NCBI GenBank assembly: GCA_003564155.1
Contig: PWOA01000052.1
Location: 1 to 36,212 of the forward strand
DNA length: 36,212 nt
Direction of reading: 5' to 3'
Origin: Candidatus Cloacimonadota bacterium
GTDB taxonomy: Bacteria > Cloacimonadota > Cloacimonadia > Cloacimonadales > PWNZ01
The translations under genes and the position numbers were made by a program. The notes under the pieces were generated by a model. The model had not been told where the DNA came from, ran no database searches, and saw only the letters and a list, made by a program, of their open reading frames with translations. Positions 2,688-29,309 of the stretch are shown here, in pieces. Positions within the stretch are counted from its first letter, which is position 1. Every line of letters begins with the position of its first letter.

Positions 2688-2723
2688 TATTAAGCTCCTG
2701 TTATTTTCAGACAGAGAAATAAA

Positions 2724-3491
2724 TTATCTGTAAAAACGGTTAGGATGGAATAAATCATCTTCAAGAGGTATATTCCACTCTACATCCGCTAATCTTATCT
2801 CGGTTCGTGAATTATTCTCGAAATTCTTCATAATCAGATGAGTAGCAACACTTCTACCGTCTATCTGTCTTATTTGTGAAGCTGCCAAATGTTTCACCAT
2901 TTCCGAACTGCTGTAGTAGTCAATCTGTATCGGTATATATAAATCCTTATCTATATGAAACACCAGCTTGCTGTAATGACTGTTCTCATCTAGAGGCATT
3001 GCAGAAATCTGCCACATATCTGATGATTCTAACACCAACTCAAAACCTCCATAATCCGTAGTGAATCCTGAGCCGCCCATATCTTCGTAACTGAAGTCTC
3101 CCCCAACTCCACCAACAGAACCACCTCTATCACCTGACCCAATGTTTCTCACTCGTCCTGTCGAGGGGAAGAAGACTCTTATGACACCTTCAGAATCTAA
3201 TACTCTCAAGCCTCTGATATTCCTGGGAGTTACAAACTCCATATGAGATTCATTAACACCCCGTGCATACGTTATCATACGAATCTCTCGATCATGTTCT
3301 TCAGCATCCAATGTTCTGAAGATACGCATTGTCATTCTGCTTCGGGCTGTTTCCGGAGAACGCTGCTCATCCACCAACTGCATAATTTCATAAGGTGTTT
3401 TTGCTGCAAGTTGTACTGATGTCAGGCCACCAATGATAATCAGTACCGTCATCATCTGTCTTATTTTTCTATTACTTGTACTTGTCTTCAT
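2724..3491 (-). CDS. LolA-like periplasmic 'outer membrane lipoprotein-sorting' protein
   Basis: A 255-residue exported protein: a basic N-terminus, a hydrophobic stretch ending near residue 30 (SVQLAAKTP), and a LolA/LolB-like fold. Family-typical parts are the opening YEIMQLVDEQRSPETARSRM, the MTMRIFRT strand, a segment on changes made visible by VFFPSTGRVRNI, and a glycine-rich loop GDRGGSVGGVGGDFSYEDMG. Family members pair with RND/MMPL transporters and are thought to carry lipidic cargo across the periplasm; that role is general family knowledge. AGGAGG lies eight bases before the ATG. It sits 29 bases after the transporter gene and 36 before the barrel gene, consistent with one operon. 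Confidence 0.82.
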   Translation of the reverse strand: MKTSTSNRKIRQMMTVLIIIGGLTSVQLAAKTPYEIMQLVDEQRSPETARSRMTMRIFRTLDAEEHDREIRMITYARGVNESHMEFVTPRNIRGLRVLDSEGVIRVFFPSTGRVRNIGSGDRGGSVGGVGGDFSYEDMGGSGFTTDYGGFELVLESSDMWQISAMPLDENSHYSKLVFHIDKDLYIPIQIDYYSSSEMVKHLAASQIRQIDGRSVATHLIMKNFENNSRTEIRLADVEWNIPLEDDLFHPNRFYR

Positions 3492-3520
3492 TTCTTATAA
3501 CCTCCTGTAATAGTTTTCTC

Positions 3521-8942: not shown

Positions 8943-9862
8943 ACACTTATTGTGAAAAGATTATTAGAATCCTTTTAAGGTTATCTACCGGGGTGATAAT
9001 CTGGCCAGTTTTGTTTTCTTTAATTGTCACCTCCTGCGATAAGAATCCGGCAGAGGTCAGTCTTAAGTATGATTACTCATTGTATGCATATTTGATTGTC
9101 GGAGAATCTATTGATACCGACAAGCCGATCATGATAAAACAACTTTTAGACCCTTATAAACCGCTCAAAGATCAGGAGATAGGTGTAACCAATGCAAAAG
9201 TAACAATATATACTGTGGACAAGCCGGAAAGAGTATTCAATCTCGTGCATGATGCGAACGGTAACTATATCTCATTAACGAGTGACAGTCTGATCATCAG
9301 GCCTAATACAACCTACAAAATACAAGTCGAAATAGATCAACATATAATCACAGCAGAAACAGTAACACCTCCTCTGACAGTTTTTAGAAATGAACTAATG
9401 AGCGCTGATTCTTTGCACATGCCGGATGCTGATCTGCAATTGTTAAGAGAACACCCGCTGAAAGTAAGTTGTAATCCAGGAGAACAAAGAATAGTATATA
9501 TTGAGACCTACTGTCTTGAAGAATACAGTAACGCCCGATTTATATATAAGTACTTTGGCAGTGACTATCCTAAAGACCAAGAACAGTATGAAAGTCCGAC
9601 AGGTGGATTTCCGAGGAGACTGGTAGCAGTTGGGGTATATAGTTCCAGGGTGAACATAGATCCGGAGAACATTCTAATCACCGACTATGATTCGATGTTT
9701 TTCTTTTACGGCAGAAATCGTCTGATGGTGTATGTAATAGATGAAAACTATTACCAATCAATCTATATGACTAAAGGATGGGAAAAAGGAGGAGTTACAG
9801 GTGCTTATGGTGTGTTCGGTTCGGGGATGGGATCGGCTTTCTATGTAAATATTGGTGAGTAA
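8936..9862 (+). CDS. DUF4249-like outer-membrane lipoprotein
   Basis: A 308-residue lipoprotein: a long N-terminal signal with hydrophobic run and lipobox VTSC (Cys34), followed by a domain opening YAYLIVGESIDTDKPIMIKQ. That opening, the VTNAKVTIYTVD strand and the pattern 'SDSLIIRPNTTYKIQVE... AETVTPP' match the DUF4249 family, a partner of TonB-dependent receptors in FCB bacteria. The start overlaps the receptor stop (ATGGTAA), implying translational coupling. By analogy with SusD it may be a surface lid or ligand-binding subunit of the receptor; that is inference. No gene follows in the operon. Confidence 0.75.
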   Translation: MVNTYCEKIIRILLRLSTGVIIWPVLFSLIVTSCDKNPAEVSLKYDYSLYAYLIVGESIDTDKPIMIKQLLDPYKPLKDQEIGVTNAKVTIYTVDKPERVFNLVHDANGNYISLTSDSLIIRPNTTYKIQVEIDQHIITAETVTPPLTVFRNELMSADSLHMPDADLQLLREHPLKVSCNPGEQRIVYIETYCLEEYSNARFIYKYFGSDYPKDQEQYESPTGGFPRRLVAVGVYSSRVNIDPENILITDYDSMFFFYGRNRLMVYVIDENYYQSIYMTKGWEKGGVTGAYGVFGSGMGSAFYVNIGE

Positions 9863-14848: not shown

Positions 14849-14877
14849 AAGGTGGATATCGGAAAGATACCCACCTT
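14849..14877 (-). terminator. Intrinsic terminator of the minus-strand thiol/secretion array
   Basis: Twelve-base arms 14849-14860 (AAGGTGGATATC) and 14866-14877 (GATACCCACCTT) pair with one mismatch around a five-base loop. On the minus strand the stem is followed by a T run (TTTTTATG), so it works for the gene ending at 14907 and probably for the whole array behind it. Confidence 0.8.
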
Positions 14878-14906
14878 AAGAATGTTATTGAGTATTTTAT
14901 GTCAAT

Positions 14907-17177
14907 TTATTTTAACAACATAATTTTATGGTTAAATCGTTGATCTACAGTGATGAAACTTACAAAATAGATCCCGGAAGGAACATAAGTTTCATTACTA
15001 TCCTTACCATTCCAGAAAAACTCTGTTTGTTTTGTGACCTCGTTATTAACCAGTGTCTTGATTAACTGTCCTTTTGCATTAAATATACTTAGATTAATAG
15101 GATCACTTTTATTATAAGTGATGTTATTAAGTGATATTGTTATGTTAGGATTGAATGGATTGGGATATGCAGAAATATTCAAACTATCATCAGGACGATT
15201 AACAATAAAATCATCTTCAATAGATAGCCAATATTCAGCACTTGAACCTCCAAACGCGCCCATATCATTAATCAAAGTCCCTTTAGCCGGATAAAGGGCA
15301 AATCCCGGATTAGCCGGATCTTCAGGATCATTATACGTTGATGCCGGATTGCCGGCATCAATACATGGCGACTCATCTTGCAAATTCCATATGGCATTTG
15401 AAGCGTCGTATGCATATCCAATTCCTTCAGAAGCTTTTTTGAATAAGGGGTCTTTATCAATGATATTTACTCCACTGAATCCATCACTGATATTACTGTA
15501 TTCTGCTAATGTTATAGCCCCTGTTAAGTCGGACACTATCGTACCTTCACCTCGAATAATAGAATTTCTGATATTAACATAAGAACTGGAGTTAAGGATA
15601 TGAAATCCAGTTTCAGCAGTATAATTATTGTGTGAAATTGTATTATTGATCAAATCAGCTGAAGAACCCATTTTAATAAATAATACGGCAGCAATTTGAC
15701 CGGTGTTGTTAACAAATATATTGTTATTTATATTGAAACTTGACCCTTCAATTTCGACAGCACCGACTCCACCGGTACTTCTATTGTTAGCAAAGAGGTT
15801 ATTCCTTAATATGGTATTATTAGAGCTAATAATCTTTAAGGCACCGGCATATGGACCTGTAGCTGAGTTATTCTGAAAAGTATTATTCAAAATCTCAACC
15901 CGGGAATTTTCGATACGAAGAGCAGTTTCCGTAGCATCACTGAAGATACAATTGAGAATTTGATTATCTACATCACTATTATAAATCCTTAAACCTTTCC
16001 AACCATTTTCGGATGAGAACATTATAGGCTCTTGTCCCAATGCATTAGCAGTTAGTTGACCTCTTACCATAATTAAACTATCATCTATCTCAATTTCTAC
16101 ACCGGGTTCAATAATTAGAAATCCATTGTTAGGTATAGTAACATCACCTACAATTTTATAAGGTCCGTATTGCTGTTTCAATATCCCGGTTATGCTGCCA
16201 TAAACATTATCCGGTTCTAAAACAGTGATATAGTCTTCCATTACCAATACAGCATCGTCTTCACCATCGGATATTTTTAGTGAGACAGTATATGTACCTG
16301 GCTGATCGTAAATAAAATATGGATTTTTTTCTGTACTATCAATTTGCCCGTCCCCATTCAAATCCCATTCTCTGGTTTCTATATCACCTTCAGGTAATGA
16401 ATTATCAGTGAATTGAACATGAAGGCTGGGCGGACCTTGCCTTACATTAGCAGCAAACATGGTAGTAAGCCCTTGGAAAGACTCCTTAGCAGCTTGATAA
16501 ACTACCGGATCATCTTCATCCATATGTTGCACAAAAACTATAGCTGATACTCTCTGCATGTCCCAAGATTTATCGATGGGATGATTTTTGGTAAACGTTC
16601 TTGACTGACCGGTAGATCGTAACGGAAACGACTCAGCATGGTAGGATTTTACAGATGCAAAGTAATCGGGATTCATTATCCCTGTCAAATCATATGTTAG
16701 AACAAAAACCACCGAATTAGTTGAGTCTGCTAAATTTGCCGTCATCAACACATCAGCATTGACCACCAATTCATTTTGATCATTAATATTTAGATCAATG
16801 TCGATACTCATAGGACTGGTACGATTTACTATTTGACCATATGCATTAGCATAGCTATTATAAACATTGTCACCACCGCCAATAACCGATACATTGCCAC
16901 CAAAACGAGCATGTGGAATCCCTGCAACTTCGTAGAGACTTCTACGTGCTATGTTTCCGGGGCTAGTATGAGTTCCGTCTATTTGCCATATTAACGGTAT
17001 TAAGTACGGAAAAGATTCATCATTTCCATGCATATCATTCAACGCCGACCGCGCTGATGGACACCACCCGCAGGTAGTTGCCGTGAATACTTCTCCAAGG
17101 ACATAAGTCTGCGTAGCGAAGACTATTGATGTCATTATGAGAAGCATAATAACTGTTGACAGTAATTTCTTCATCAT
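14907..17177 (-). CDS. Secreted Omp28-like thioredoxin / PKD / beta-helix protein with C-terminal sorting domain
   Basis: A 756-residue exported protein. The signal peptide spans about 1-21 (STVIMLLIMTSIVFA). An Omp28-like thioredoxin-fold domain follows with FTATTCGWCPSA; the redox pair is Cys36 and Cys39. A PKD domain lies near 245-325 (REWDLNGDGQIDS, PGTYTVSLKI). A right-handed beta-helix with many N-rich turns (ILNNTFQNN, NTILRNNLFANNRS) covers about 340-610. The end is a FlgD-like sorting domain: YPNPFNPNITISL, IFNAKGQLIKTL, PSGIYF, last residue Lys. Two ATGs are in tandem; GGAG spacing favours the second, at 17174. It is the last gene before the terminator at 14849-14877. Likely surface-exposed or released; whether the thioredoxin part is active outside is unknown. 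Confidence 0.82.
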   Translation of the reverse strand: MMKKLLSTVIMLLIMTSIVFATQTYVLGEVFTATTCGWCPSARSALNDMHGNDESFPYLIPLIWQIDGTHTSPGNIARRSLYEVAGIPHARFGGNVSVIGGGDNVYNSYANAYGQIVNRTSPMSIDIDLNINDQNELVVNADVLMTANLADSTNSVVFVLTYDLTGIMNPDYFASVKSYHAESFPLRSTGQSRTFTKNHPIDKSWDMQRVSAIVFVQHMDEDDPVVYQAAKESFQGLTTMFAANVRQGPPSLHVQFTDNSLPEGDIETREWDLNGDGQIDSTEKNPYFIYDQPGTYTVSLKISDGEDDAVLVMEDYITVLEPDNVYGSITGILKQQYGPYKIVGDVTIPNNGFLIIEPGVEIEIDDSLIMVRGQLTANALGQEPIMFSSENGWKGLRIYNSDVDNQILNCIFSDATETALRIENSRVEILNNTFQNNSATGPYAGALKIISSNNTILRNNLFANNRSTGGVGAVEIEGSSFNINNNIFVNNTGQIAAVLFIKMGSSADLINNTISHNNYTAETGFHILNSSSYVNIRNSIIRGEGTIVSDLTGAITLAEYSNISDGFSGVNIIDKDPLFKKASEGIGYAYDASNAIWNLQDESPCIDAGNPASTYNDPEDPANPGFALYPAKGTLINDMGAFGGSSAEYWLSIEDDFIVNRPDDSLNISAYPNPFNPNITISLNNITYNKSDPINLSIFNAKGQLIKTLVNNEVTKQTEFFWNGKDSNETYVPSGIYFVSFITVDQRFNHKIMLLK

Positions 17178-17251
17178 TTCTCCTTGATTTGTTTAACAAA
17201 TTATTATCGCCTTTATTTGTATAATACTACATCCAATCAAATATAGTATCA

Positions 17252-18883
17252 CTATTGAATATTTCTAACAACTCTTAATCCCATAAAACTGTTACCTCTG
17301 TATGGGAATGCATTCAATCGAGATGCAACCCTATGGTTTGCTGCACTATGTGCCCAACTTCCACCTCTGATAATCCGAAAACTACCTGTGTCGGGTCCTC
17401 GAGGGTTATTTTCAGGACTATTCTTATAATAATCTTCACAATACCAATCCCAACACCATTCCCAAACATTACCACTCATGTCGAAAACTCCTGCTCCATT
17501 AGGAAGCTTTAAGCCAACCTGATTGGTTCTTTCGCCGGAGTTATCACTATACCAGGCAACATCACTAATCTTATCGCTTCCGGTATATTCAAAATCCGGA
17601 ACATTTGTTCCCGATCTAGCTGCATATTCCCATTCCGCTTCTGTAGGTAACCTGTACCCATCAGCTTCCCAATTAGCCTCAACCATATTCCAGTAACGAT
17701 CATTAGTCATAAAAGGGGGATCTCCCCAATCGTCCGGATCTGTAGAGTCTTTTATTTTATATACCGGTGTTAAATTTTCTAATTTACTCCTTCTATTGCA
17801 ATATACAAGTGCCCAATACCAGGTTACACCGTCAACCGGCAAGTTATTATTGTTGTTAAAGCTTGAAGGGTTATCACCCATAACTGCAACCCACTCTTCT
17901 TGTGTTACCTGATATTGTCCGATATAAAAACCATTTAATGAAACATTATGAACAGGTTTTTCATGAAATCTACCGGTATCATTAGAATCTCCCATCCTAA
18001 ATAATCCCGGTGGCATCATAATCATTCCCGGGATATCAGCATAATCTATAATATATGTGGCTTGTACAATTTCACTTGGCAGCCAACTGGATTTGAAAGC
18101 GATAGCTTTAATAGTCTTGTCTACCGGCACAAGTATTGGGTCGGTATATTGATTCGAAGCAAATGTAGGTTCATCTCCATTAAGAGTATAATGAATATTA
18201 ACATTTTCGGTATCATGAGTAATTTCTACAGTTTGAGCTTCATCGTATACTCCATAAGGGGGATCAAACCTTGGGAGAGCAAGTTTAAGTTCGAAGATAC
18301 CGATTGCAGTTTCACTTGGTTTTATGTCAGGCTTGAAAGCTTTAGCTCTTAACGTGGTTATAGATGTTATGGCCACAGGTTCAGTGTAGATTGGAGATTC
18401 TTCAGTAGGCTCTGCTCCGGTTGTAGTATAGTGAATTTGAACATCGGGAGTAGAGGTTAGAATTTCTATCTCTAAAACCTCTTCATATCTCCCCGGAGGT
18501 GGATAAAAATTAGGTTTGCTGACTTTTTCCTCTTCACTTTGTTCTACAGAGTAAACTCCTTTAGATATATTGCTAGGTATCCACCCCTTTTTAAAAGATC
18601 TAGCACTAATAACTTGAGTAGAATCAATAAAGATCGGATCATTGTATAAGAAGGATTTTTCGGTTGGTTTTTCTCCATCTATTGAATAATAAATATCAGC
18701 ATTTCCATTTTCGCAAAGTAGTGAGACTAAAACAGAGTCTACATAATTACCGGGTTCGGGATCAAAAACGGGACTCTTGAGTTGAGATTTAGGTTGCGTG
18801 GTCTTATCATTACAAGATATAATTGTTAACAATATTAGTAACATGGGTAACAACGTTACAATAGTTAATCTTAATCTTAACAT
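17252..18883 (-). CDS. Lipoprotein with three chitobiase-C-like repeats and an FGE/SUMF1-fold domain
   Basis: A 543-residue lipoprotein with lipobox TIISC (Cys24). Three repeats of about 75 residues follow (near 36-110, 122-197, 206-276), each with the pattern 'F.P.PG.Y', 'IYYSIDGEKPT', 'I.AR.FK', the chitobiase/beta-hexosaminidase C-terminal type found as a spacer in surface proteins. Residues about 283-541 are an FGE-sulfatase (SUMF1) fold: PPGLFRMGDSNDTGRFHEKP, GQYQVTQEEWVAVMG, RLPTEAEWEYAARSG, SGNVWEWCWDW, IRGGSWAHS. Where active formylglycine-generating enzymes carry two catalytic cysteines after GGS, this one has WAHSAANHRVASR, so it is unlikely to be an oxidase. The start has only a weak AAGGG site. 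It belongs to the same minus-strand array. Confidence 0.85.
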   Translation of the reverse strand: MLRLRLTIVTLLPMLLILLTIISCNDKTTQPKSQLKSPVFDPEPGNYVDSVLVSLLCENGNADIYYSIDGEKPTEKSFLYNDPIFIDSTQVISARSFKKGWIPSNISKGVYSVEQSEEEKVSKPNFYPPPGRYEEVLEIEILTSTPDVQIHYTTTGAEPTEESPIYTEPVAITSITTLRAKAFKPDIKPSETAIGIFELKLALPRFDPPYGVYDEAQTVEITHDTENVNIHYTLNGDEPTFASNQYTDPILVPVDKTIKAIAFKSSWLPSEIVQATYIIDYADIPGMIMMPPGLFRMGDSNDTGRFHEKPVHNVSLNGFYIGQYQVTQEEWVAVMGDNPSSFNNNNNLPVDGVTWYWALVYCNRRSKLENLTPVYKIKDSTDPDDWGDPPFMTNDRYWNMVEANWEADGYRLPTEAEWEYAARSGTNVPDFEYTGSDKISDVAWYSDNSGERTNQVGLKLPNGAGVFDMSGNVWEWCWDWYCEDYYKNSPENNPRGPDTGSFRIIRGGSWAHSAANHRVASRLNAFPYRGNSFMGLRVVRNIQ

Positions 18884-19009
18884 AGTTAATTACCCTTGCA
18901 AAAACCTGAATCGAGTTTACCATAATTCATTTGAGTTATCATCCTTAATTTTGATCGCTGATTTTTCAGAGTTTAAAAACTGGCCTTATAATTGTTGTCA
19001 AGATAAATA

Positions 19010-21043
19010 TTATCTTATTATACTCAATTTCCTGCTAATATTAGTTACCCCGTCACTAAGGAGATATAAATATATTCCATTAGAAACATTATTCCCACTA
19101 ATATCTTTTCCATTCCAAATAACATAACCATATTCTTCTTCATATAGTGGGAGCTCTTCAAAATCTTTTATTACTTGACCTTTAATATTATAAATCTTCA
19201 AAGAAGTTTCGTTTATTCTATTTTCAGATACCTGATACGAAATCTTAAATCCTGCAGACCGATAATCTGAAGTAGCATTAGAAAAATAAGGATTAGGGTA
19301 ACCGGAATATAATTGTAATTTATTATCGATCTCTGGTAATATTTCAATAGTGATATCCGTAACTTGAAACCAGTTTAATATGTTTAACAAAATCTGTTGC
19401 CTATCTTGATAATTATCGATACCTTCAATGCCAAATGCTAAGTAAACTAAGTTTCTTTCCAAGGAGCGAACAGCGCCACTTTTGTTATTATCATAATGAA
19501 ATATTTCAACTCCTTTGTGTTCATCCTTAACCGAAATATAACTAAGTACATCTTGATTATCAGCACTATCTCCATTATTTAGAGAAATGGTAATATTTGA
19601 ACTTATCGGATCTTCATAAACACCGGTAAGTTTATAGTCATCATTATTGACAGCAACCAAATATGTGTTGAGATAATTCCCCATAAAATCTATGTCGTTA
19701 TAAATATCAGATTCAACTAAATCGTGACTAATATTCTGTCCGGAAAGTAGAAGATCATTCCCTTTATCTAAATGTCTTTTCAGAAAGGATATTTCTTTTT
19801 TTGATAGAGCAGGTTCTCTTTCTCCGCTAATCCAAATGACTGTATTAACGTCCACATCCTGTCGAATATCCGACATTGTTGTACACCAAGTCCCAAATGA
19901 ATAACCATTTTTTTGAAGAGGTTCTTCAATATAATACTCATAATTCTCCCATCCATCACCATCAACTACGAGTATATTAACATCATGTGTTATAAATCGT
20001 GCCGGTATAATATAGTCTTCCATTGACTCGGATTGAACGAGAAAGTGGTAATCAATCATGCCACTACTTTCCGGGACTATATTGCTATGAAAGCTTGTTG
20101 CCTCTCCATCGTTGAGAGTAAAGTCCTTAGGTCCGAAATAGCAACTTCCATGATCATCACAATATGTAAGAAGCCATCCTTCAGGCGCATCATCAATTAA
20201 TACTTCAACAGTTAGATCTGAGGTTGCTCCAAAATTATAAAGATAAAAGTATTCTGCTTCGAACAAACCGGATGAAGGTCCAACATCAATTCTTGGATGA
20301 GTGAAAACTGCTCTTAAGTGATGAGGATAGTTATCATAAGAAGAAGTTGCTTGGATTATTTCATCATTATAAATGACATAAGAGACTACTTTCAGATCAT
20401 TAGTTGAATAATCTTCGTTTAATGTAAATTTAGCATCTAAAATCAAAGGGCTATTCAGATTAGTAAGGGAAAAGTTAAATTCGACGATATCTCTGGCTAA
20501 ATTAGTCACATCTGCAGTTACATTATCTTCTACCAACACGAACCGTATTAAAGCATTATCAAACGTTTTATTTTTTGATAATAGGGTTAACTCTACTTCG
20601 GTTTCACCGTTTTCTAAATCAAATAATTTGAAATCCATCTTTATCGGAGTAGGTTCATAGTATTGTTTCTGAACCAAATAATCATAAGGTTTACCGCTCT
20701 CTATCGGTAATTTTGTATTAGATATTCGAGATTTATTATTTACAAATAACGAGGCATAACTAAAATTATCTTTACCATCGATGAAGTTATCAACTGATGC
20801 TGATGAAAACTTTTCCTTAACGGTAGAGTGATAATACCTTATAGGCAGGAAAACTTTTTTATTGTATCTATCGGTCAGATAGTTAATCCCTTGATAAGCT
20901 CTATTATTATCCTGATTATTAACTGAAGGGAAAAACTCCGCAACTATTGTTCTGGGATAATGACTTATAATATCATCTGCTGTCAAAAGACCTACATAGG
21001 TCATTAATACAATAAGAATGACGGTAATTACATAAACTTTCAT
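19010..21043 (-). CDS. Secreted protein with a cysteine-less Omp28/thioredoxin-like domain and C-terminal sorting domain
   Basis: A 677-residue exported protein; signal peptide about 1-22. The beginning, RTIVAEFFPSVNNQDNNRAY, aligns by pattern with the thioredoxin segments of the other two Omp28-like proteins here, but the CxxC is replaced by NQDN (about 43-46). Further parts are a middle region of beta-sandwich character, and near 345-530 an alpha/beta segment opening VNILVVDGDGWENYEYYIEE, with LSGQN, resembling class I glutamine amidotransferase-like folds in FCB surface proteins. The end is a FlgD-like sorting domain: YPNPYFSN, IYNIKGQVIKDF, GIYLYLL, last residue Arg. GGAGG lies four bases before ATG. 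It follows the barrel gene by 61 bases. Role unknown; a non-redox binding or chaperone-like part is one possibility. Confidence 0.75.
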   Translation of the reverse strand: MKVYVITVILIVLMTYVGLLTADDIISHYPRTIVAEFFPSVNNQDNNRAYQGINYLTDRYNKKVFLPIRYYHSTVKEKFSSASVDNFIDGKDNFSYASLFVNNKSRISNTKLPIESGKPYDYLVQKQYYEPTPIKMDFKLFDLENGETEVELTLLSKNKTFDNALIRFVLVEDNVTADVTNLARDIVEFNFSLTNLNSPLILDAKFTLNEDYSTNDLKVVSYVIYNDEIIQATSSYDNYPHHLRAVFTHPRIDVGPSSGLFEAEYFYLYNFGATSDLTVEVLIDDAPEGWLLTYCDDHGSCYFGPKDFTLNDGEATSFHSNIVPESSGMIDYHFLVQSESMEDYIIPARFITHDVNILVVDGDGWENYEYYIEEPLQKNGYSFGTWCTTMSDIRQDVDVNTVIWISGEREPALSKKEISFLKRHLDKGNDLLLSGQNISHDLVESDIYNDIDFMGNYLNTYLVAVNNDDYKLTGVYEDPISSNITISLNNGDSADNQDVLSYISVKDEHKGVEIFHYDNNKSGAVRSLERNLVYLAFGIEGIDNYQDRQQILLNILNWFQVTDITIEILPEIDNKLQLYSGYPNPYFSNATSDYRSAGFKISYQVSENRINETSLKIYNIKGQVIKDFEELPLYEEEYGYVIWNGKDISGNNVSNGIYLYLLSDGVTNISRKLSIIR

Positions 21044-21104
21044 ACAACCTCCATTTTTTAATGTTATAATATACTCAACAAACTACGTTCATTTATCACA
21101 GAAT

Positions 21105-22547
21105 CTAAAACCTGGTAGTTAGATTAATCTTAAGTCCCTGAAATGGTGACGTGTAAAAACATTGACCACTTCGACAGACTTTACCACCTTTTTCTTCTCC
21201 GACAAATACTTTCATTTCAGTATGAGAAAATGGTCTAACTGTAAATTCTAATCCAAACCAAGTAGGTGGATCGTTACGAATATCGTCAATAGACTCTATT
21301 TTAGTCTCAGCATTCAATGAAAGCGAGAACTTATTGAAGAATATATCATATTGTAAAAGTGGATAATAGTTTGTAGATTCAGCATTGTTTAGTTTTATAT
21401 TCTCTACTTTAAACTGACCTCTTATATGTGATGCCCGGCCGAAAATATCTAAATCAAATGTCAGAGCCGGAGTAATTTCTTTAAACCACTCTTTCCTGTC
21501 TTTATCAAGAGCTTCAAATTGAGAGTATTCAAATCCTAAAAGGAATGAACTAAAATCTTTAGTCCCTTCTATAAACAAATCACTTTGACGAATATCAAAG
21601 CCGGTATTCCATGCTTCTGAATAAGTCACGGATAATGATGTTGTCATTGATGGATAATATTGGAAACCAGTTAATAATCCTTCTTCATCATAACCGGGAT
21701 CTACTCTCTCTGATAAAGGCTCTTCGCTCGAATTAAGACTTGGTAAATCATTCATCCGATAGTTAAAATTGCTGTATTTTTTATATCCTAGAGTCATGGT
21801 TAATGGGCCTAAATATTTATTTGCATATCCATAAATTGCTTGCCCTTTGACTGTTCCAGCAATATTCCGATACAGTTTTGTTTCTGCATATTCTCCTGCG
21901 ACATCAAATGAATGATACGAAATGCCAACTCTACCTCCCGCGACTAAGCGTGTACGGTAACGATCGTCAAATCTTCTTTCATTTAAGGACAGTAATGAGA
22001 ATCCGAAACTTATATTATCGAGATAAGTTGATGTAAGATCAATACCCCCTACAGTATCATTCTTATTATCGTCAATTTCATTAGGCAAAGATCCATATAA
22101 TGTTTTGATTGTTGCAAGTTCGGATCTGATTTGGGTTGATAATCCATTGAGAGTCGTATCCCATTCATAAGTTTTATCTCGATACGAACGAAGGATTATA
22201 CCATTACCAAAATAATCATTAAATGATCCTACTCTAATCCTCATTCCAGACAAGTTTGTTGCCAGATAAAGCTTTTCGGCTTGATATTGAATCATTGTCG
22301 GACTTAAATCCTTGACAGAGTCAAATTGACTGTATTTCGGCAAGTTAGCGGTAATACTTAATCCAATTTCAATATTATCATAATTTATTCTTAAGTTAGC
22401 TTCATTATGAAAAAAAGTAGAAAGAGAATCTTTTGCGTCCCGATAAATAAACTGAGCTTCATTAATACCTGAAATTGAAATGTCAGCGTAATTTGGTACT
22501 GACATTAAAAAAGAAATTAAAATTAATAATGGGATAAATCTAGTCAT
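21105..22547 (-). CDS. DUF6029-like outer-membrane beta-barrel protein
   Basis: A 480-residue protein with signal peptide (PLLILISFLMSVPNYA) and a barrel of alternating strands ending in Phe (INLTTRF). The segment LSGMRIRVGSFNDYFGNGII and following RSYRDKTYEWDTTLNGLS recall the DUF6029 family, outer-membrane proteins of Bacteroidota. Two cysteines near the end (CRSGQC) could form a disulfide. The start ATG lies five bases after the TlpA-like gene's stop, and its weak AAGG site overlaps that stop, so the two are translationally linked. In this array it is the only outer-membrane channel, so it may be the surface anchor or passage for the neighbouring exported proteins; that is inference. Confidence 0.72.
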   Translation of the reverse strand: MTRFIPLLILISFLMSVPNYADISISGINEAQFIYRDAKDSLSTFFHNEANLRINYDNIEIGLSITANLPKYSQFDSVKDLSPTMIQYQAEKLYLATNLSGMRIRVGSFNDYFGNGIILRSYRDKTYEWDTTLNGLSTQIRSELATIKTLYGSLPNEIDDNKNDTVGGIDLTSTYLDNISFGFSLLSLNERRFDDRYRTRLVAGGRVGISYHSFDVAGEYAETKLYRNIAGTVKGQAIYGYANKYLGPLTMTLGYKKYSNFNYRMNDLPSLNSSEEPLSERVDPGYDEEGLLTGFQYYPSMTTSLSVTYSEAWNTGFDIRQSDLFIEGTKDFSSFLLGFEYSQFEALDKDRKEWFKEITPALTFDLDIFGRASHIRGQFKVENIKLNNAESTNYYPLLQYDIFFNKFSLSLNAETKIESIDDIRNDPPTWFGLEFTVRPFSHTEMKVFVGEEKGGKVCRSGQCFYTSPFQGLKINLTTRF

Positions 22548-22552
22548 CTACC

Positions 22553-23041
22553 TTAACCTTCAATATTATTTTTATACTCTTGAATTATTTCTATTAGTTT
22601 ATCTTCGTCTCCTCTGGAATAACCCGTATGTTCGAAGATAATCTCACCATTGTAACCTAAAACAAATGTATGAGGTACGGTTGTAACTTGATATCTTTCC
22701 ATAACCTCTTGGTTAGTATCGAATAAATTTATCATCGTATACTTTTGAGAACGAATAAGAGATTTTGCTCTATTGACAGATCGAGGGTTATCAATGCTTA
22801 TTCCTACGACTAATATCTCATCGTATTCATTGTTTATCTTTTCTAATTCAGGCATATATCTCATACAAGGCACACACCAACTAGCCCAAAAGTCTATTAT
22901 TATTATTTGGTCTCCAATTATATCATCATATAATGATATTTCCCTGTCATTTATATCAAGTAATGTGAAATCACGAGCTAATTCTGCAGAGTTTAAACCT
23001 GTTGCTAACATCAAGGTTATTATCAAAGCTATAACCTTCAT
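22553..23041 (-). CDS. TlpA/ResA-like periplasmic thioredoxin
   Basis: A 162-residue protein with signal peptide (about 1-19) and a single thioredoxin fold. The active site is FWASWCVPCMRYMPEL with Cys56 and Cys59, and the cis-proline region is TTVPHTFVLG. WCVPC is typical of TlpA/ResA reductases, which keep partner thiols reduced in the periplasm and receive electrons from DsbD or CcdA. DsbD lies two genes upstream in the same direction, a plausible electron donor. GGAGG lies six bases before the ATG. No cytochrome c maturation genes are near, so the usual ResA role is not indicated here. Confidence 0.9.
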   Translation of the reverse strand: MKVIALIITLMLATGLNSAELARDFTLLDINDREISLYDDIIGDQIIIIDFWASWCVPCMRYMPELEKINNEYDEILVVGISIDNPRSVNRAKSLIRSQKYTMINLFDTNQEVMERYQVTTVPHTFVLGYNGEIIFEHTGYSRGDEDKLIEIIQEYKNNIEG

Positions 23042-23110
23042 AATTTTCCTCCAATTTTCTTGCTGTTATTTTAATTATAATTTCATTACATATACAGTTT
23101 ACTGCTGGGG

Positions 23111-24253
23111 TTATTTATCAACTAATAACTCGAATTCTTGTACATTATAAACTATACATGTTTCTTCATCATAAGGATAGTCAATGTTTTGTATCCATAA
23201 AATCAATGCTGGATTATTTATAAGTATGTCTGGTACTGTTATTTCCAGATTTAAGTTTGCTACTCTTTCTCCGTTAAGTGCTTGATTCGGAGAAAACATG
23301 TCTTCTAAAAGAGAAGTATATTTATGATTAACGACTATATTCCTAACCGTTTCTCCAGCTGCATTTTTGGTTGATGACTCTTTTTCTAATAAAGCATATT
23401 TCAGCTTAACATTATCTCCCACCTCGACATTTGTTTTGACATCTAAACTAAACGATACTACGTTTTCTGAAATAGAATACTCGAAACTGTCTAAATGGAA
23501 ATTGGCTTCCTTGCCAAAATATTCAGAAATTCCGTAATTATACTCAACATAGCTATTAGCTTCCGAGCCACCGGTTATTCTCGTTGAACCTTGAATTATC
23601 CCGACAGGTAATGAAGAAACATTATAGTAAGAAGCAATGTCTTCATTCCCGAAATCATATTTATCCATACGGTGATATTCTATATAATAGAAATTATCCC
23701 TATATTGCTGTTTTAATGAATGTAAAGCTGCTTCAACGTAGGGACAGTTTGGGCACCAAAGAGCTGTAAATAGTTCTACCAATACTCTTCTCTCCGGTGA
23801 TTCGATCGCATCTTGTTGATTACCAATAAACAGATAGTTATTCTCTTGAGATGAGGTATACTCAACTATTGTTGTGTCAAGAACTGTCGTTATATCTTGT
23901 TTATTATCTGTGCCAAAAGCTAAAATACTATACGTAAAACTTAAGTTACTATAGTCTGTTGATTCGATACTGACAAAGAAGCTATCAGGATAATTCAGCA
24001 CTATTTTTTCAAAGTAATCGGCAACTGCTTCCTTATCTTTTCCATCGTTTAGATACTCATCTGAATAGTATTCCATAATAGAGTTGACATCTTGTTTTTG
24101 AAATGAAAACTCCAATTGAAGGGTAAAATCATTTAATCTATCTTGGTAGTGGTTATTTTCTTGATATGGTTCAAATTTATTGTCAAACCGATTGCAGGAC
24201 ACGGTTATTGCTAAAATACTAATTATTGCCCATAATTTCATTATTAATCCCAT
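23111..24253 (-). CDS. Omp28-like lipoprotein with thioredoxin-fold domain
   Basis: A 380-residue lipoprotein: lipobox TVSC (Cys20), then a helical-beta region about 35-135 that could be an NTF2-like fold (tentative). A thioredoxin-like domain follows with RRVLVELFTALWCPNCPYVE (Cys167, Cys170) and a cis-proline region SSLPVGIIQG. The last 130 residues form a beta-sandwich as in Omp28-type proteins. GGAG five bases before ATG 24253 supports this start over the ATG at 24241. It sits between DsbD and the TlpA-like gene, so it is probably a membrane-anchored partner in the same thiol relay. It lacks the sorting domain carried by its two exported relatives and is likely held in a membrane by its lipid. 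Confidence 0.82.
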   Translation of the reverse strand: MGLIMKLWAIISILAITVSCNRFDNKFEPYQENNHYQDRLNDFTLQLEFSFQKQDVNSIMEYYSDEYLNDGKDKEAVADYFEKIVLNYPDSFFVSIESTDYSNLSFTYSILAFGTDNKQDITTVLDTTIVEYTSSQENNYLFIGNQQDAIESPERRVLVELFTALWCPNCPYVEAALHSLKQQYRDNFYYIEYHRMDKYDFGNEDIASYYNVSSLPVGIIQGSTRITGGSEANSYVEYNYGISEYFGKEANFHLDSFEYSISENVVSFSLDVKTNVEVGDNVKLKYALLEKESSTKNAAGETVRNIVVNHKYTSLLEDMFSPNQALNGERVANLNLEITVPDILINNPALILWIQNIDYPYDEETCIVYNVQEFELLVDK

Positions 24254-24333
24254 CTTAACTCCAAATATCTTATATTAAGTAATTGCCTATGTGAGGCTAA
24301 CCAATTAGTCATTCAAGAAAAAATACTTCCCTG

Positions 24334-26031
24334 TTATTCAACATCTTCAAGTCTGTCAAGTACATTAAAAACCATTCTTTTCGTAATTATTTCCGGTAAA
24401 ATAATTGGTTCATCTTCATCGGGCAAATAAAACACATAAACTGGAACACCGACTCTGTTATATTTTTGAATCCATTGAGCTATTGTTTCGTCATAACTCG
24501 TAAAATCAGCAATAAAAAGTTCAACTCCTTTCTCCTGAAAAGCTTCTTGGATATCATCTGTGAAAAGAACTGTTATTTCGTTAGTATAGCAAGTCGTACA
24601 CCATTTGGCAGTAAAGTCGATAAAAACAGGTACACCTTCTTCTCGTAATTCTTCTATTTTGTCAGGATCGAAAACCTGCCAGTTACCATCAACATGATAG
24701 CTATCGTTATCAATGATATTACTATTTTCATCAAATGAGAGTGTACTAATGCCGACATTAATTATGATTAATAAAGCAAAAACAAAAGCAATCCACTTTT
24801 TTAAGGGTTTCACATCAGGTCGTACATATCGACCGATTATTCTAAATGATATTCCCAAAGCTAATAAAAAGAATAAGAATGATAAAAGTTCTCTTCCTCC
24901 AATCTGATGATGTAAAACTTCCAACATTTTGATCGCCCAAAAGAGCAATAAAAAACCCATTAATTCTTTGAGTACATTCATCCATTCACCCGGTTTGGGT
25001 AGTTTTTTTACAAAATTGGGTTTTATCGCAATTACAATAAATGGTATTCCCATACCAATACCAATGAAAATAAACATTAATAAGATTGTAAGTGGTTTCT
25101 GGGCAAAAGCAAAGGTTAAAGCTGCTCCTAATATAGGTGCTGTGCAGGGAGTACCTAATAATACAGCAAAAATTCCCATAAAGAAAGCACCTGTTAGCCC
25201 ACCTTTATTTGAAAGTTTTCCAGCGACTGAAGGGTCCGGCGCTACAATAGTAAAAACATCAAACAAAGAAAGTGCAAAAACAAAAAGTATGGATGTCATG
25301 ACTATAACAAAAGTAGGATTTTGAAACTGGAAACCCCAACCGACCATCTGGCCAGTAGTTTTTAGAGCTATAATTATGACGGCCAGTATTAGAAAAGAAA
25401 AAAGAATCCCTAAGCAATATACCAAGGAGTTCATTGTTATTTTTTTTCTGTCGGATTGACTTTGATTAATCAAGCTGAAAGCTCTAAGTGATAATACCGG
25501 TAATACACAGGGTGTTAGATTTAATATGAAACCTCCCAACAAAGCGAATATCAGATAAAGCAATAATGGGCTGCCGGTTTCTCCGGGCAATACTTTCAAA
25601 TCTAAAATCAAATCCTGCTCATCAGGCATTATGCATGTTCCTGTCTCATCATAACAAAGCTGATAAGCTGCAATAACACTCAGTTTATACTCGCCGGGAT
25701 CTACGGTGGAACTTATATTAATTGATCGTTTTAAGATTGATTCACCGAATAAATGGATAAAACCATCATCCCACAGTTCACCTTCCGGATAATCAATCTC
25801 TCCAAAACTAAAACCTGCTTTGGGTTTGATTTCAAAGAAAAAATACTCTTCCTGGAGTATCTGGTGCATTCCTTCCGGATAGATATATCTCACTTCAACT
25901 CTACCACTACCACCAGCTTCTATTTCCGGAGGATATATGTTAGCTTCAATTATTGGTTGAGGCGCGAAGGCATTTAAATTAGCAAAATATATAATAATCA
26001 ATACTAAACTACTTATTTTAAAATATTTCAT
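24334..26031 (-). CDS. dsbD: Thiol:disulfide interchange protein DsbD
   Basis: All three DsbD parts are present, so electrons can pass from cytoplasmic thioredoxin to the periplasm. After the signal peptide, the N-terminal domain has the pair in QLCYDETGTCIMP (Cys126, Cys133). Then come eight membrane segments with NLTPCVLPVL (Cys175) and LLGTPCTAP (Cys296). A C-terminal thioredoxin domain follows with DFTAKWCTTCYTNE (Cys478, Cys481). I chose ATG 26031 because AGAGG precedes it by five to six bases and it opens directly on the signal sequence MKYFKISSLVLIIIYFANL; the frame extends ten codons further to ATG 26061, which has a weaker site. Length is 565 residues, normal for DsbD. It heads the minus-strand array and has a promoter at 26308-26336. 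Confidence 0.93.
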   Translation of the reverse strand: MKYFKISSLVLIIIYFANLNAFAPQPIIEANIYPPEIEAGGSGRVEVRYIYPEGMHQILQEEYFFFEIKPKAGFSFGEIDYPEGELWDDGFIHLFGESILKRSINISSTVDPGEYKLSVIAAYQLCYDETGTCIMPDEQDLILDLKVLPGETGSPLLLYLIFALLGGFILNLTPCVLPVLSLRAFSLINQSQSDRKKITMNSLVYCLGILFSFLILAVIIIALKTTGQMVGWGFQFQNPTFVIVMTSILFVFALSLFDVFTIVAPDPSVAGKLSNKGGLTGAFFMGIFAVLLGTPCTAPILGAALTFAFAQKPLTILLMFIFIGIGMGIPFIVIAIKPNFVKKLPKPGEWMNVLKELMGFLLLFWAIKMLEVLHHQIGGRELLSFLFFLLALGISFRIIGRYVRPDVKPLKKWIAFVFALLIIINVGISTLSFDENSNIIDNDSYHVDGNWQVFDPDKIEELREEGVPVFIDFTAKWCTTCYTNEITVLFTDDIQEAFQEKGVELFIADFTSYDETIAQWIQKYNRVGVPVYVFYLPDEDEPIILPEIITKRMVFNVLDRLEDVE

Positions 26032-26300
26032 CCATACCTCTGTATAATTTTTTTTGACCATCTTCTAAGAAGTACGATATTTTGCAACCTTTTTTAAGAA
26101 CTTATTACCATGATCTCTTCTCCAGAAGTTGATTATCAAGAACTTTTCTTGACAATTTTTTACATATTTTTTTTATTAATTTCATAAGTATTAGATATAT
26201 AATATTCTGAATGATCATCAACCGTGATGAACAAAACATGAACAATATACTATCAAATGCTAATGTTGATAATTCATTGTTGATTAAACAGATAAACAAA
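26032..26300 (-). promoter_or_regulatory. Long 5' leader of the dsbD array with stem-loops
   Basis: If transcription starts just after the -10 box at 26308, the leader is about 270 bases. It contains TCAAGAA-ctt-TTCTTGA (26136-26152), a perfect seven-base stem with a three-base loop, and CTTCTAAGAAG (26062-26072), an 11-base palindrome just above the start. A 67-codon minus-strand frame crosses it but starts at TTG without a ribosome site, so I do not call it a gene. Regulatory function is only a possibility. Confidence 0.35.
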
Positions 26301-26307
26301 TTGAGCA

Positions 26308-26336
26308 ATATTATCAGGTTCTTAAGTTAGTGTCAA
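26308..26336 (-). promoter_or_regulatory. Sigma70-type promoter of the dsbD array
   Basis: On the minus strand TTGACA (26331-26336) is followed by a 17-base spacer and TAATAT (26308-26313), five of six matches to the -10 consensus. It is the best promoter match I found in the window and points at dsbD and the six genes behind it. Confidence 0.7.
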
Positions 26337-26490: not shown

Positions 26491-27825
26491 ATGAAAAGTT
26501 CTTACGCTGATTTTTTCGCGGAAATCATTAACCACTATCAGGAGTTGAAAATAGCCTTTTCTTTTCAGGATTGGGGAACCGATTTTCTCAGGTTTTTCAA
26601 CAGTGAGGTTAATTACAACATTACCAAAGATAATCTTAATCTTAAAGCTCAAATCTACAAAGGAAAGAGAAGTTATTCTTTTCAAATGGATAGTCCTACA
26701 GAACAAGATATTATTCAAACTATCGATAATGCGATTTTGTTAATTGACAAACTACCTGAAGATCCTGATTTTGTCGATTTGGAAGATAACATGGAAACAG
26801 TTGCTGAAATCCCCAAAGAGAATAATATTGAGAAAGTTTCTTTAGCGAGAAAGATCAACATTCTCAAGCAAATATCCGATGCAGTCAAACCTTATGATTA
26901 CAATATTTACGGAACTTTTATATGTAACTATTGTACTCAATATATAATCAATAGCAATGGTGTAAATAAAACAATGGTTAATTCGCCTATTATGTTAGAA
27001 TTGAAGGCTATGTCACAAAAAAATGATGTAACTGTTATTAGTTCATTTGGCGGAGAGGATATTAATGACTTTAATCTTGAAAACTTTATTAGTGAGCTTA
27101 TTGAAAAGATTAAGATTGCTCGCAATGATATTATCGATGTTCAGCCTGACAATTATGAAGTTATTTTAGCACCAAGTAGCATTGGACAACTTGTTGCATA
27201 TCTGGTATTTGTTGGTATGAATGCAATTTCTTATGATAAAAGGCAAAGTTATTTTGAAAATAAGATAGGAGATAAAGTTTTTTCAGATATTATCACTATA
27301 ATGGACGATCCCAGCTTTCCCGGTTTGATTTCAACAGATTATAATTCTGATGGTCATATTTATAAAAAAAATGTGCTCGTTAAGAATGGTACCTTCAAAA
27401 AATTCTTAGTTAATAATTATTACAGTTATAAAACGGGTATGGTGAAAAATGGCGGAGAAGGTCAATGTCTAGTGCTGGATAAAGGCAATACTACACTCAA
27501 TAGTATGATTAAAGGTATAAAAAAAGGATTGTATATTTCTAACCTTCACTACATGAACTTCATAAACCCTAAAGAAACTTCGGTTACCGGATTAACACGA
27601 GATGGTACTTTTTTAATAGAAGATGGAAAAATGACAAAGGTAGTAAATAATCTGAGATATACCGTAAAATTAGTTGATATATTAAAGAATATTACCGCCC
27701 TTGAAAATGTTTGCCATATAATACCAAACTCTGGTAATTATGGAGCTTTTTCAATTAAAAGTGCAGCAATGCCTCACGTTAAAGTATCTTCTTTTAAAAT
27801 CACATCATCTACTGAAACTATATAG
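26491..27825 (+). CDS. pmbA: TldE/PmbA-family peptidase subunit
   Basis: A 444-residue member of the TldD/PmbA family. Family-typical parts are a central NYEVILAPSSIGQLVAYL, a later LVKNGTFKKFLVNNYYSYKT, and NPKETSVTGLTRDGTFLIEDGK. At the place where TldD has HExxxH this protein has PSSIGQLVAY, so it lacks metal ligands, as expected for the E subunit. The TldD-TldE heterodimer is a metallopeptidase that degrades or trims unfolded peptides and takes part in the maturation of some modified peptides. GAGGAG lies five bases before the ATG. The partner tldD follows after 47 bases. No peptide precursor gene was seen nearby, so a general proteolytic role is the default reading. Confidence 0.88.
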   Translation: MKSSYADFFAEIINHYQELKIAFSFQDWGTDFLRFFNSEVNYNITKDNLNLKAQIYKGKRSYSFQMDSPTEQDIIQTIDNAILLIDKLPEDPDFVDLEDNMETVAEIPKENNIEKVSLARKINILKQISDAVKPYDYNIYGTFICNYCTQYIINSNGVNKTMVNSPIMLELKAMSQKNDVTVISSFGGEDINDFNLENFISELIEKIKIARNDIIDVQPDNYEVILAPSSIGQLVAYLVFVGMNAISYDKRQSYFENKIGDKVFSDIITIMDDPSFPGLISTDYNSDGHIYKKNVLVKNGTFKKFLVNNYYSYKTGMVKNGGEGQCLVLDKGNTTLNSMIKGIKKGLYISNLHYMNFINPKETSVTGLTRDGTFLIEDGKMTKVVNNLRYTVKLVDILKNITALENVCHIIPNSGNYGAFSIKSAAMPHVKVSSFKITSSTETI

Positions 27826-27872
27826 CCGGACTTGGCTTTTTTAGACAGTATTAACTCAAAAAGGATGGAAAA

Positions 27873-29309
27873 ATGAAGAAATTAGTCTACGACATAATCA
27901 GCAAATTAGATCTTCCCGATATTACTTTCTCTGATGTACGGCTTACATCAACCGATAGAAAGTTTATTTATTTCGAAAAAGGAATCTTAAAAAGATTAGG
28001 TTCAATTATGGATTCCAATGCCTTAGGAATAAGAGTATTAATTAATGGTTGCTGGGGATTTTCCGGCACTAATGATTTTAGCATAAATTCGATAGATAAA
28101 TGTATAAAAACAGCAATAAATAATGCTCGTTTGGGCAGTAAATATAAAATCAATAAAGTTAAGTTTTTCCCTATTGATCATTCGGAAATCAATTATATTT
28201 ATAAACCGAAAGAAGATCCATTCCTTATGGATGATGAAGATATTATTTCGTATTGGAAATCGATTGCTAAGAAATTGTACGGAGAAAAAATAGTCTTTTC
28301 ATATGCTAAATGTCATTTTTACAGACAGTACAAAATCTATGCTAATTCTGAAGGTACTGTTGCAGACACCATTGTTTATGACACATTACCATCTATAGAA
28401 GTATATGCTTCGGACGGTAAACAAGTGATGAGTCGAAATTTTCCCGGTCATATGGCAGCTAAAAGAGGTGGCTTCGAAGTAGTACGAGATTATCATTTCC
28501 CTGATATGTGTGAAGTAATCATTAAGGAAGCACGAGAACTGCTTAAAGCACCTACAATAACTGAAGAACGAGCTGATATAATCATTGCTAACGGACATCT
28601 GGCTTTACAATTACATGAATCAGTAGGTCATGCTACCGAGGCAGATAGAATATTTGGCATGGAATTATCATATGCAGGCAAAACTTTTGTTAAGCCTGAA
28701 ATGTTAGGAAAATATAAATACGGATCTGATATTTTGAATATTTATAGTGATAGTACTGATCCTGATGGAATAGGATTTCATCCTGTAGATGATGAAGGAG
28801 TTCCCGGTAAACGTGTCGACATAATCAAAGATGGTGTTCTCGTAAATCAACAATCTTCTCGAGAAACAGCACATCGTTTAGGTTTAGAACCTAGCTCTAA
28901 TATGAAAGCGTCATTCGGGGATGATATACCATTAATTAGGATGAGTAATCTATGTATTGCACCGGGAAAAGGTACTCTGAAAGACTTAATAGAAGATACT
29001 GAAAATGGATACTTATTAGACTACACGAAAACATGGTCAATAGATGACAATAGAAATAACTTCCAATTTACGACAGAAATAGGATGGAAAATTCAAGACG
29101 GACGAGTAGTGGGAATCGTTAGAGAACCGACTTACTATGGTATCACAAAAGAATTTTGGAACTCATGCGACTGGATATGCGGACCCGAAGAATGGGGTTA
29201 CCACGGTACATTTAGTTGTGGTAAAGGTGAACCGGGACAAGCAATGCATCTATCGCACGGTATAGCTCCTGCACGATTCAAAAATGTAGTCTGTAACGTA
29301 AGAGCTTAA
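27873..29309 (+). CDS. tldD: Metallopeptidase subunit TldD
   Basis: A 478-residue TldD. The metal motif HESVGH (His248, Glu249, His253) is intact in the segment LALQLHESVGHATEADRIFG, and the third ligand lies in SCGKGEPGQAM (Cys449). Other family marks are VDDEGVPGKRVDIIKDGVL, SSRETAHRLGLEPSSNMKAS and a GIVREPTYYGIT strand. It forms the active heterodimer with TldE, encoded just upstream. AGGATGG about six bases before the ATG gives a moderate ribosome site. Length and order are normal for the family; nothing odd is seen. Confidence 0.93.
   Translation: MKKLVYDIISKLDLPDITFSDVRLTSTDRKFIYFEKGILKRLGSIMDSNALGIRVLINGCWGFSGTNDFSINSIDKCIKTAINNARLGSKYKINKVKFFPIDHSEINYIYKPKEDPFLMDDEDIISYWKSIAKKLYGEKIVFSYAKCHFYRQYKIYANSEGTVADTIVYDTLPSIEVYASDGKQVMSRNFPGHMAAKRGGFEVVRDYHFPDMCEVIIKEARELLKAPTITEERADIIIANGHLALQLHESVGHATEADRIFGMELSYAGKTFVKPEMLGKYKYGSDILNIYSDSTDPDGIGFHPVDDEGVPGKRVDIIKDGVLVNQQSSRETAHRLGLEPSSNMKASFGDDIPLIRMSNLCIAPGKGTLKDLIEDTENGYLLDYTKTWSIDDNRNNFQFTTEIGWKIQDGRVVGIVREPTYYGITKEFWNSCDWICGPEEWGYHGTFSCGKGEPGQAMHLSHGIAPARFKNVVCNVRA

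Follow-up and report, generated by a model that had tools for sequence, protein, structure and literature searches.

A Conserved DsbD–TlpA–DUF6029 Gene Core in Cloacimonadota as a Candidate Thiol Module of the Outer Membrane and Cell Surface

Results and Discussion

The DUF6029 outer-membrane barrel was found to have a dedicated partner, a TlpA-type thioredoxin, as shown by gene adjacency and by natural gene fusions. In Cloacimonadota both genes belong to a conserved five-gene core which, in our favoured interpretation, encodes a DsbD-fed thiol module setting the redox state of the barrel and of surface proteins, a proposal to which we give about an even chance of being correct.

Gene Organisation in the Window

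The window is the whole stretch of Candidatus Cloacimonadota DNA that was analysed (36,212 nucleotides). Seven ORFs run on its minus strand from 26061 down to 14907 in the transcription order DsbD, CPNC lipoprotein, TlpA, DUF6029 barrel, protein 5, FGE-fold lipoprotein and CGWC protein, with intergenic gaps of 80, 69, 5, 61, 126 and 74 bases (Table 1). This agrees with a previous sequence-only reading of the same DNA, in which seven genes on one strand with gaps of 5–126 bases and a clear terminator were described; the 12-pair stem of the latter came out on top of our scan. The promoter regarded there as the best of the window does score 10/12 with TG, but it is weak evidence because 103 promoter-like sites were obtained in the scan versus 76 ± 9 in shuffled sequences.

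Table 1. Features of the gene run and their coordinates in the window.
Feature	Coordinates	Strand	Basis
DsbD, 575 aa; C-x6-C in a putative N-terminal domain, NLTPC/LGTPC in the TM domain, WCTTC in the C-terminal part	24334..26061	-	DsbD_TM 93 bits, Thioredoxin_7 50 bits, motifs; heads most homologous operons
Omp28-related lipoprotein of thioredoxin fold, with lipobox C20 and CPNC as active site	23111..24253	-	Thioredoxin 26.8 bits (cut-off 23.5); Omp28_seleno 34.7 bits, under cut-off; practically every orthologue has CxxC
CPNC active-site codons of the lipoprotein	23744..23755	-	Translation
Periplasmic TlpA/ResA-like thioredoxin of 162 aa with signal peptide and CVPC	22553..23041	-	AhpC-TSA 62.6 bits; adjoins DUF6029, or forms one gene with it, in different phyla
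CVPC active-site codons of TlpA	22865..22876	-	Translation; CxPC in 78/80 operon TlpAs
DUF6029 outer-membrane barrel, 480 aa	21105..22547	-	PF19494 69 bits; AF2 model of a fused homologue, pLDDT 91, ~24 strands
Invariant C-x4-C of the barrel (CRSGQC), last loop, predicted extracellular	21159..21176	-	77/77 aligned barrels, sole conserved Cys columns; 30/30 in a second phylum
Protein 5, 677 aa, with a Trx-like fold that lacks CxxC, W-x4-C...C in an Ig-like domain, an alpha/beta domain and a sorting tail of type A	19010..21043	-	AF2 pLDDT 88; alignment A3; PDB matches of the family profile's tail include PorU and further T9SS CTDs
W-x4-C-x5-C motif of protein 5 (WLLTYCDDHGSC), conserved pair	20141..20176	-	57/59 genes at the same position; no variation of N, W, C, C in A4
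FGE-fold lipoprotein with three CHB_HEX_C_1 domains; within the gene run, not conserved	17252..18883	-	Domain matches; absent at this place in other Cloacimonadota loci
Omp28-related protein with a CGWC Trx-like domain, PKD and beta-helix domains and a sorting tail of type A	14907..17177	-	Domain matches; similar CxxC + tail proteins after the core in several genera
CGWC active-site codons of the last gene	17061..17072	-	Translation
Terminator-like stem, 12 pairs, T-rich tail	14849..14877	-	Outranks every other stem of the scan by a wide margin
Promoter-like TTGACA-17-TAATAT	26308..26336	-	10/12 with TG; many such sites by chance

Elsewhere in the window, a TldE/TldD (PmbA) protease pair is encoded on the plus strand (26491–29309), divergently from the operon. 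An MMPL transporter, a LolA-like protein and a 437-aa protein without Pfam match share a single strand at 1374–6274, with a TetR-like regulator just beyond, and at 6708–9862 a TonB-dependent receptor with a CarbopepD_reg domain is followed by a 308-aa probable lipoprotein.

The Conserved Five-Gene Core

Comparison of the window with 60 relatives (61 Cloacimonadota loci in all) showed the order DsbD, thioredoxin-fold lipoprotein, TlpA, DUF6029 barrel and T9SS-tailed protein 5 in 54 loci, 49 by strict count and five in which protein 5 also matches the lipoprotein profile because of its own thioredoxin-like domain. The remaining loci are rearranged or carry a TlpA-barrel fusion, except L100, which is without a recognisable lipoprotein and protein 5. 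Scattering of the genes in homologous genomes, named in the sequence-only reading as the observation that would speak against an array, was not the case. Adjacency of DsbD to the core was found inside Cloacimonadota only. The homologues in named genomes, which place the window in a Cloacimonadota MAG, were all from Cloacimonadota save two labelled Armatimonadota; the operons of L166 and L169, which bear this label, are Cloacimonadota-like and the bins are probably misnamed.

Of the seven-gene array proposed earlier, these five genes are conserved and the other two are not part of the fixed unit. The FGE-fold gene, rightly assigned as such (FGE-sulfatase domain, 172 bits, and three CHB_HEX_C_1 domains), is a local insertion: it is missing from this place in the other Cloacimonadota loci and was rejected as a system member on that ground. 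Its identity as GldK was also rejected (88.8 bits against a cut-off of 350). The CGWC Omp28-like protein encoded by the last gene, with PKD, beta-helix and Por_Secre_tail domains (sorting domain 31.8 bits, above the cut-off of 27), has counterparts in several genera, not in all, and is optional. A T9SS-tailed CxxC protein follows the barrel in only about 28/61 loci, and a surface CxxC protein was therefore rejected as a fixed component; the automatic count was 26, which includes a spurious CxxC in L102 and leaves out loci whose tails went undetected, such as L078 and L095. In L131 (12773–14257), and also in L086, L098, L099, L111 and L113, protein 5 is followed by a protein of ~490 aa with a C-terminal TlpA domain.

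DsbD and the Thioredoxin-Fold Lipoprotein

DsbD is supplied with electrons by cytoplasmic thioredoxin and hands them to thioredoxin-type proteins of the periplasm. The assignment of the first gene to DsbD was borne out by the TM domain with its cysteine pair (DsbD_TM, 93.3 bits; NLTPC and LGTPC) and by the C-terminal thioredoxin CxxC (Thioredoxin_7, 50 bits; WCTTC); the N-terminal region, a putative immunoglobulin-like domain, scored 22.6 bits with DsbD_N, against a cut-off of 25, and contains CYDETGTC. No VKOR or DsbB was found in 40 Cloacimonadota genomes, and control genomes gave matches.

In L088, L094, L103–L107, L114, L115, L117 and L118 the first operon position is taken by another DsbD type (WATWCKNC), weakly similar to that of the window, an apparent in-place displacement of DsbD. 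Two NCBIfam matches are selenoprotein models, and the low-scoring DsbDs were for this reason inspected for selenocysteine, which was rejected: the genes are intact, CxxC is used and not UGA frames, and a second DsbD type stands at the same place. In L074, L079, L082, L101 and partly L075, which retains one, the usual full-length DsbD is not beside the core; a 135–155 aa protein resembling the DsbD N-terminal domain alone and a protein of ~287 aa, possibly the membrane part, are encoded nearby, and four of these five loci carry a TlpA-barrel fusion.

The description of the lipoprotein and the CGWC protein as Omp28-like holds at sub-threshold level only. With the models tested (PF11551, NF033782 and NF045500) the scores were 16.7 bits against a cut-off of 34.9 for PF11551, 27.1 against 150, and 53.5 and 34.7 against 200 for Omp28_seleno.

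The DUF6029 Barrel and Its Partner TlpA

The protein described as a DUF6029-like barrel matched DUF6029 itself (PF19494, 69 bits, curated cut-off 27), a family of many phyla whose function is not known. When barrels from Cloacimonadota and other phyla were aligned, two cysteine columns only were conserved, both in 77/77 sequences, within a GG-x-x-C-x-x-G-x-C motif near the C-terminus; the same C-x4-C was present in 30/30 barrels of a second phylum. The last 33 residues hold 11 of the 27 invariant positions of alignment A1 (p = 1.3e-7). This cysteine pair, overlooked in the sequence-only reading, is the strongest feature of the array.

The AF2 model of a natural TlpA-barrel fusion (L174; pLDDT 91) showed a TlpA domain at the N-terminus, followed by about 24 strands as read from the strand list, in which short turns and long loops alternate. 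Both cysteines are in a small hairpin of the last loop (residues 614–629). The C-terminus of such barrels is on the periplasmic side and, from the parity of strands and turns in the modelled list, we infer that the C-x4-C lies on the outer face. The TlpA domain of the model was closest to ResA in the PDB, and the nearest solved large barrels were 24-strand ushers (FimD), with low TM-scores.

TlpA itself, correctly named in the sequence-only reading, showed an AhpC/TSA-type thioredoxin fold with CxPC (62.6 bits; CVPC), and this motif is retained in 78/80 operon TlpAs. Its gene is directly upstream of or fused to the barrel gene in 60/61 Cloacimonadota loci by automatic count, and on gene-by-gene reading TlpA is upstream also in the sole exception, L084. 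The two adjoin or are fused in 69 of the 70 non-edge loci of named genomes, that is, those with enough sequence. Outside Cloacimonadota the same holds for 23/28 loci counted automatically and for 25/28 on adding L231 and L235 (TlpA upstream), and in a second phylum for 25/30. The sample outside Cloacimonadota comprised 165 genomes of different families, of which G131 and G279 share a phylum, so that phyla are slightly fewer than genomes. Since TlpA-like genes are a small minority of any genome, the pairing is beyond chance. The two are joined in one gene in some Cloacimonadota and in two or more further lineages (L220 and L229), and the TlpA–DUF6029 pairing extends to other phyla. No literature tying DUF6029 or Omp28 to TlpA, or DUF6029 to thioredoxins, was found in a search that covered subscription journals little and in which the family turned up in one paper, as a possible polysaccharide porin (PMC9603273).

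Protein 5 and the Type IX Secretion Context

Protein 5 had been taken for a cysteine-less relative of the Omp28-like proteins. This identity was rejected: in the window it has three cysteines, two of them in a W-x4-C...C motif of an Ig-like domain which is kept in 57 of the 59 genes directly after the barrel, longer-spaced motifs missed by the pattern and evident in the sequence being included; the other two are unrelated genes. N, W, C and C are invariant in the 16-row alignment A4, and the pair and the sorting tail are all that is constant in the protein. The thioredoxin-like domain at its N-terminus carries WCxxC in one large family, has degenerated in the window lineage and is missing from others. 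For protein 5 of the window, AF2 (pLDDT 88) predicted the alpha/beta order of a thioredoxin-like domain at residues 33–128, together with Ig-like domains, an alpha/beta domain and a sorting domain; a fold search gave low-TM multi-domain matches only. The sorting tail scored 20.4 bits in the window, under the cut-off of 27, orthologues passed (45.8 and 52.1), and the family profile retrieved T9SS C-terminal domains from the PDB, that of PorU among them. The W-x4-C...C Ig-like domain, for which Pfam gave no match, may not have been described before. Its profile gave three matches in 28 genomes outside the phylum, two of them near the barrel locus, numbers too small to build on.

Cloacimonadota have been named among the phyla that may have a T9SS (PMC11285876). 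PorU was found in the window's genome (624.6 bits), and SprA in 19/19 relatives at least 90% complete; the window's genome, at 83% completeness, gave no SprA match. The placing of the sorting-domain proteins at the surface is reasonable because a T9SS (SprA, PorU) is encoded in the phylum. Among the 165 non-Cloacimonadota genomes, 22 had both DUF6029 and SprA, 25 SprA alone and 112 neither, and SprA was not detected in 6 of the 28 with DUF6029 (Fisher p = 1.5e-9, odds ratio 16, values which shared ancestry can inflate).

Proposed Function and Alternatives

In the DsbD-fed module, DsbD would carry cytoplasmic reducing equivalents into the periplasm, as is established for DsbD, and these would pass to the soluble TlpA and the thioredoxin-fold lipoprotein. 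TlpA would set the redox state of the single invariant C-x4-C of the barrel, and the lipoprotein and TlpA would also act on, or proofread, the cysteine pair of the T9SS-exported protein 5. Reduction or isomerisation is the most likely direction, because DsbD is present and DsbB/VKOR were not found, and the most likely site would be the periplasm, before or during assembly and export; a tethered TlpA is possibly active later at the barrel mouth. The thiol path from the inner membrane to the surface drawn in the sequence-only reading is partly supported by the conserved gene order and the T9SS context, but a hand-to-hand relay through the barrel wall is unsupported because the barrel has only one conserved cysteine pair, predicted on the outer face. 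TlpA may instead act before or during assembly, or may reach the outer loop from within or under the pore.

The conserved barrel pair could be a plain structural disulfide. On the main rival explanation, which we consider possible though rather unlikely, TlpA and the lipoprotein would serve assembly only, as DsbC-like proofreaders of structural disulfides in the last hairpin of the barrel and in T9SS cargo, with no relay to the surface and an unrelated transport role of the barrel. One conserved pair per barrel is in line with this, as is the position of the C-terminal hairpin, by established knowledge the region of entry into BAM, and the activity of the E. coli LptD barrel depends on assisted disulfide formation (PMC10567701). 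Against it, the fusion of TlpA with the barrel points to a lasting role, DsbB/VKOR as a source of oxidation were not found, and a structural disulfide would seldom require a private enzyme in many phyla.

A more far-reaching form of the proposal, in which barrel and TlpA would be a thiol conduit across the outer membrane, analogous to MtrA/MtrB, appears improbable; the thioredoxin, in or at the mouth of an unplugged 24-strand barrel, would deliver electrons to the outer C-x4-C for the reduction of disulfides of T9SS-displayed proteins or outside substrates. It is very doubtful that the barrel is a porin for polysaccharide or another solute, with the thioredoxins adjacent by chance or for general envelope upkeep: DUF6029 similarity was found by HHpred among Wzi-like barrels near OPX genes, for which a polysaccharide role was proposed (PMC9603273), but TlpA is paired with the barrel in several lineages and fused to it, the C-x4-C is invariant, and no OPX gene was recognised within the window. 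A seven-gene relay that includes the FGE-fold lipoprotein and a cysteine-less relative has the common strand and the short gaps in its favour and is scarcely credible, the absence of the FGE gene from other loci contradicting one part and the conserved cysteine pair of the supposed cysteine-less protein another.

Relation to Known Systems

The favoured DsbD-fed module resembles cytochrome c maturation and the reductive Dsb pathway, where DsbD acts with TlpA/ResA/DsbE-type thioredoxins, in that a DsbD with three cysteine pairs, the first in a putative N-terminal domain, would feed a CxPC TlpA whose fold is nearest to ResA; it differs in that the partner is an outer-membrane barrel with T9SS-tailed proteins and not apocytochrome or DsbC. 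Barrels with a partner or plug are known from LptD/LptE and MtrA/MtrB, which likewise combine a large outer-membrane barrel with a dedicated periplasmic partner, in the present case a thioredoxin.

HBP35 of Porphyromonas gingivalis is exported by the T9SS and has measured thioredoxin activity (PMC2907840). It combines a CxxC thioredoxin-type domain with a T9SS C-terminal domain at the surface, as do the CGWC protein and the WCxxC forms of protein 5 in other genera, and by this analogy it is a precedent for surface thioredoxins, although the domain architecture differs. Paraprevotella 00502, an Omp28-related T9SS protein that recruits trypsin and for which a thiol role was not reported (PMC9477747), is like the proteins described here in being Omp28-related, T9SS-tailed and at the surface, the present ones scoring under the Omp28 cut-offs.

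Conclusions

The thioredoxin partner, the invariant cysteine pair and the link to type IX secretion give DUF6029 its first concrete, testable function. The presence of a thioredoxin gene beside or fused to the barrel gene in many unrelated bacteria suggests that the redox state of outer-surface cysteines is under cellular control. If surface cysteines are actively set in this way, thiol control, usually described as bound to the periplasm, would reach the outer membrane and the surface of many anaerobes.
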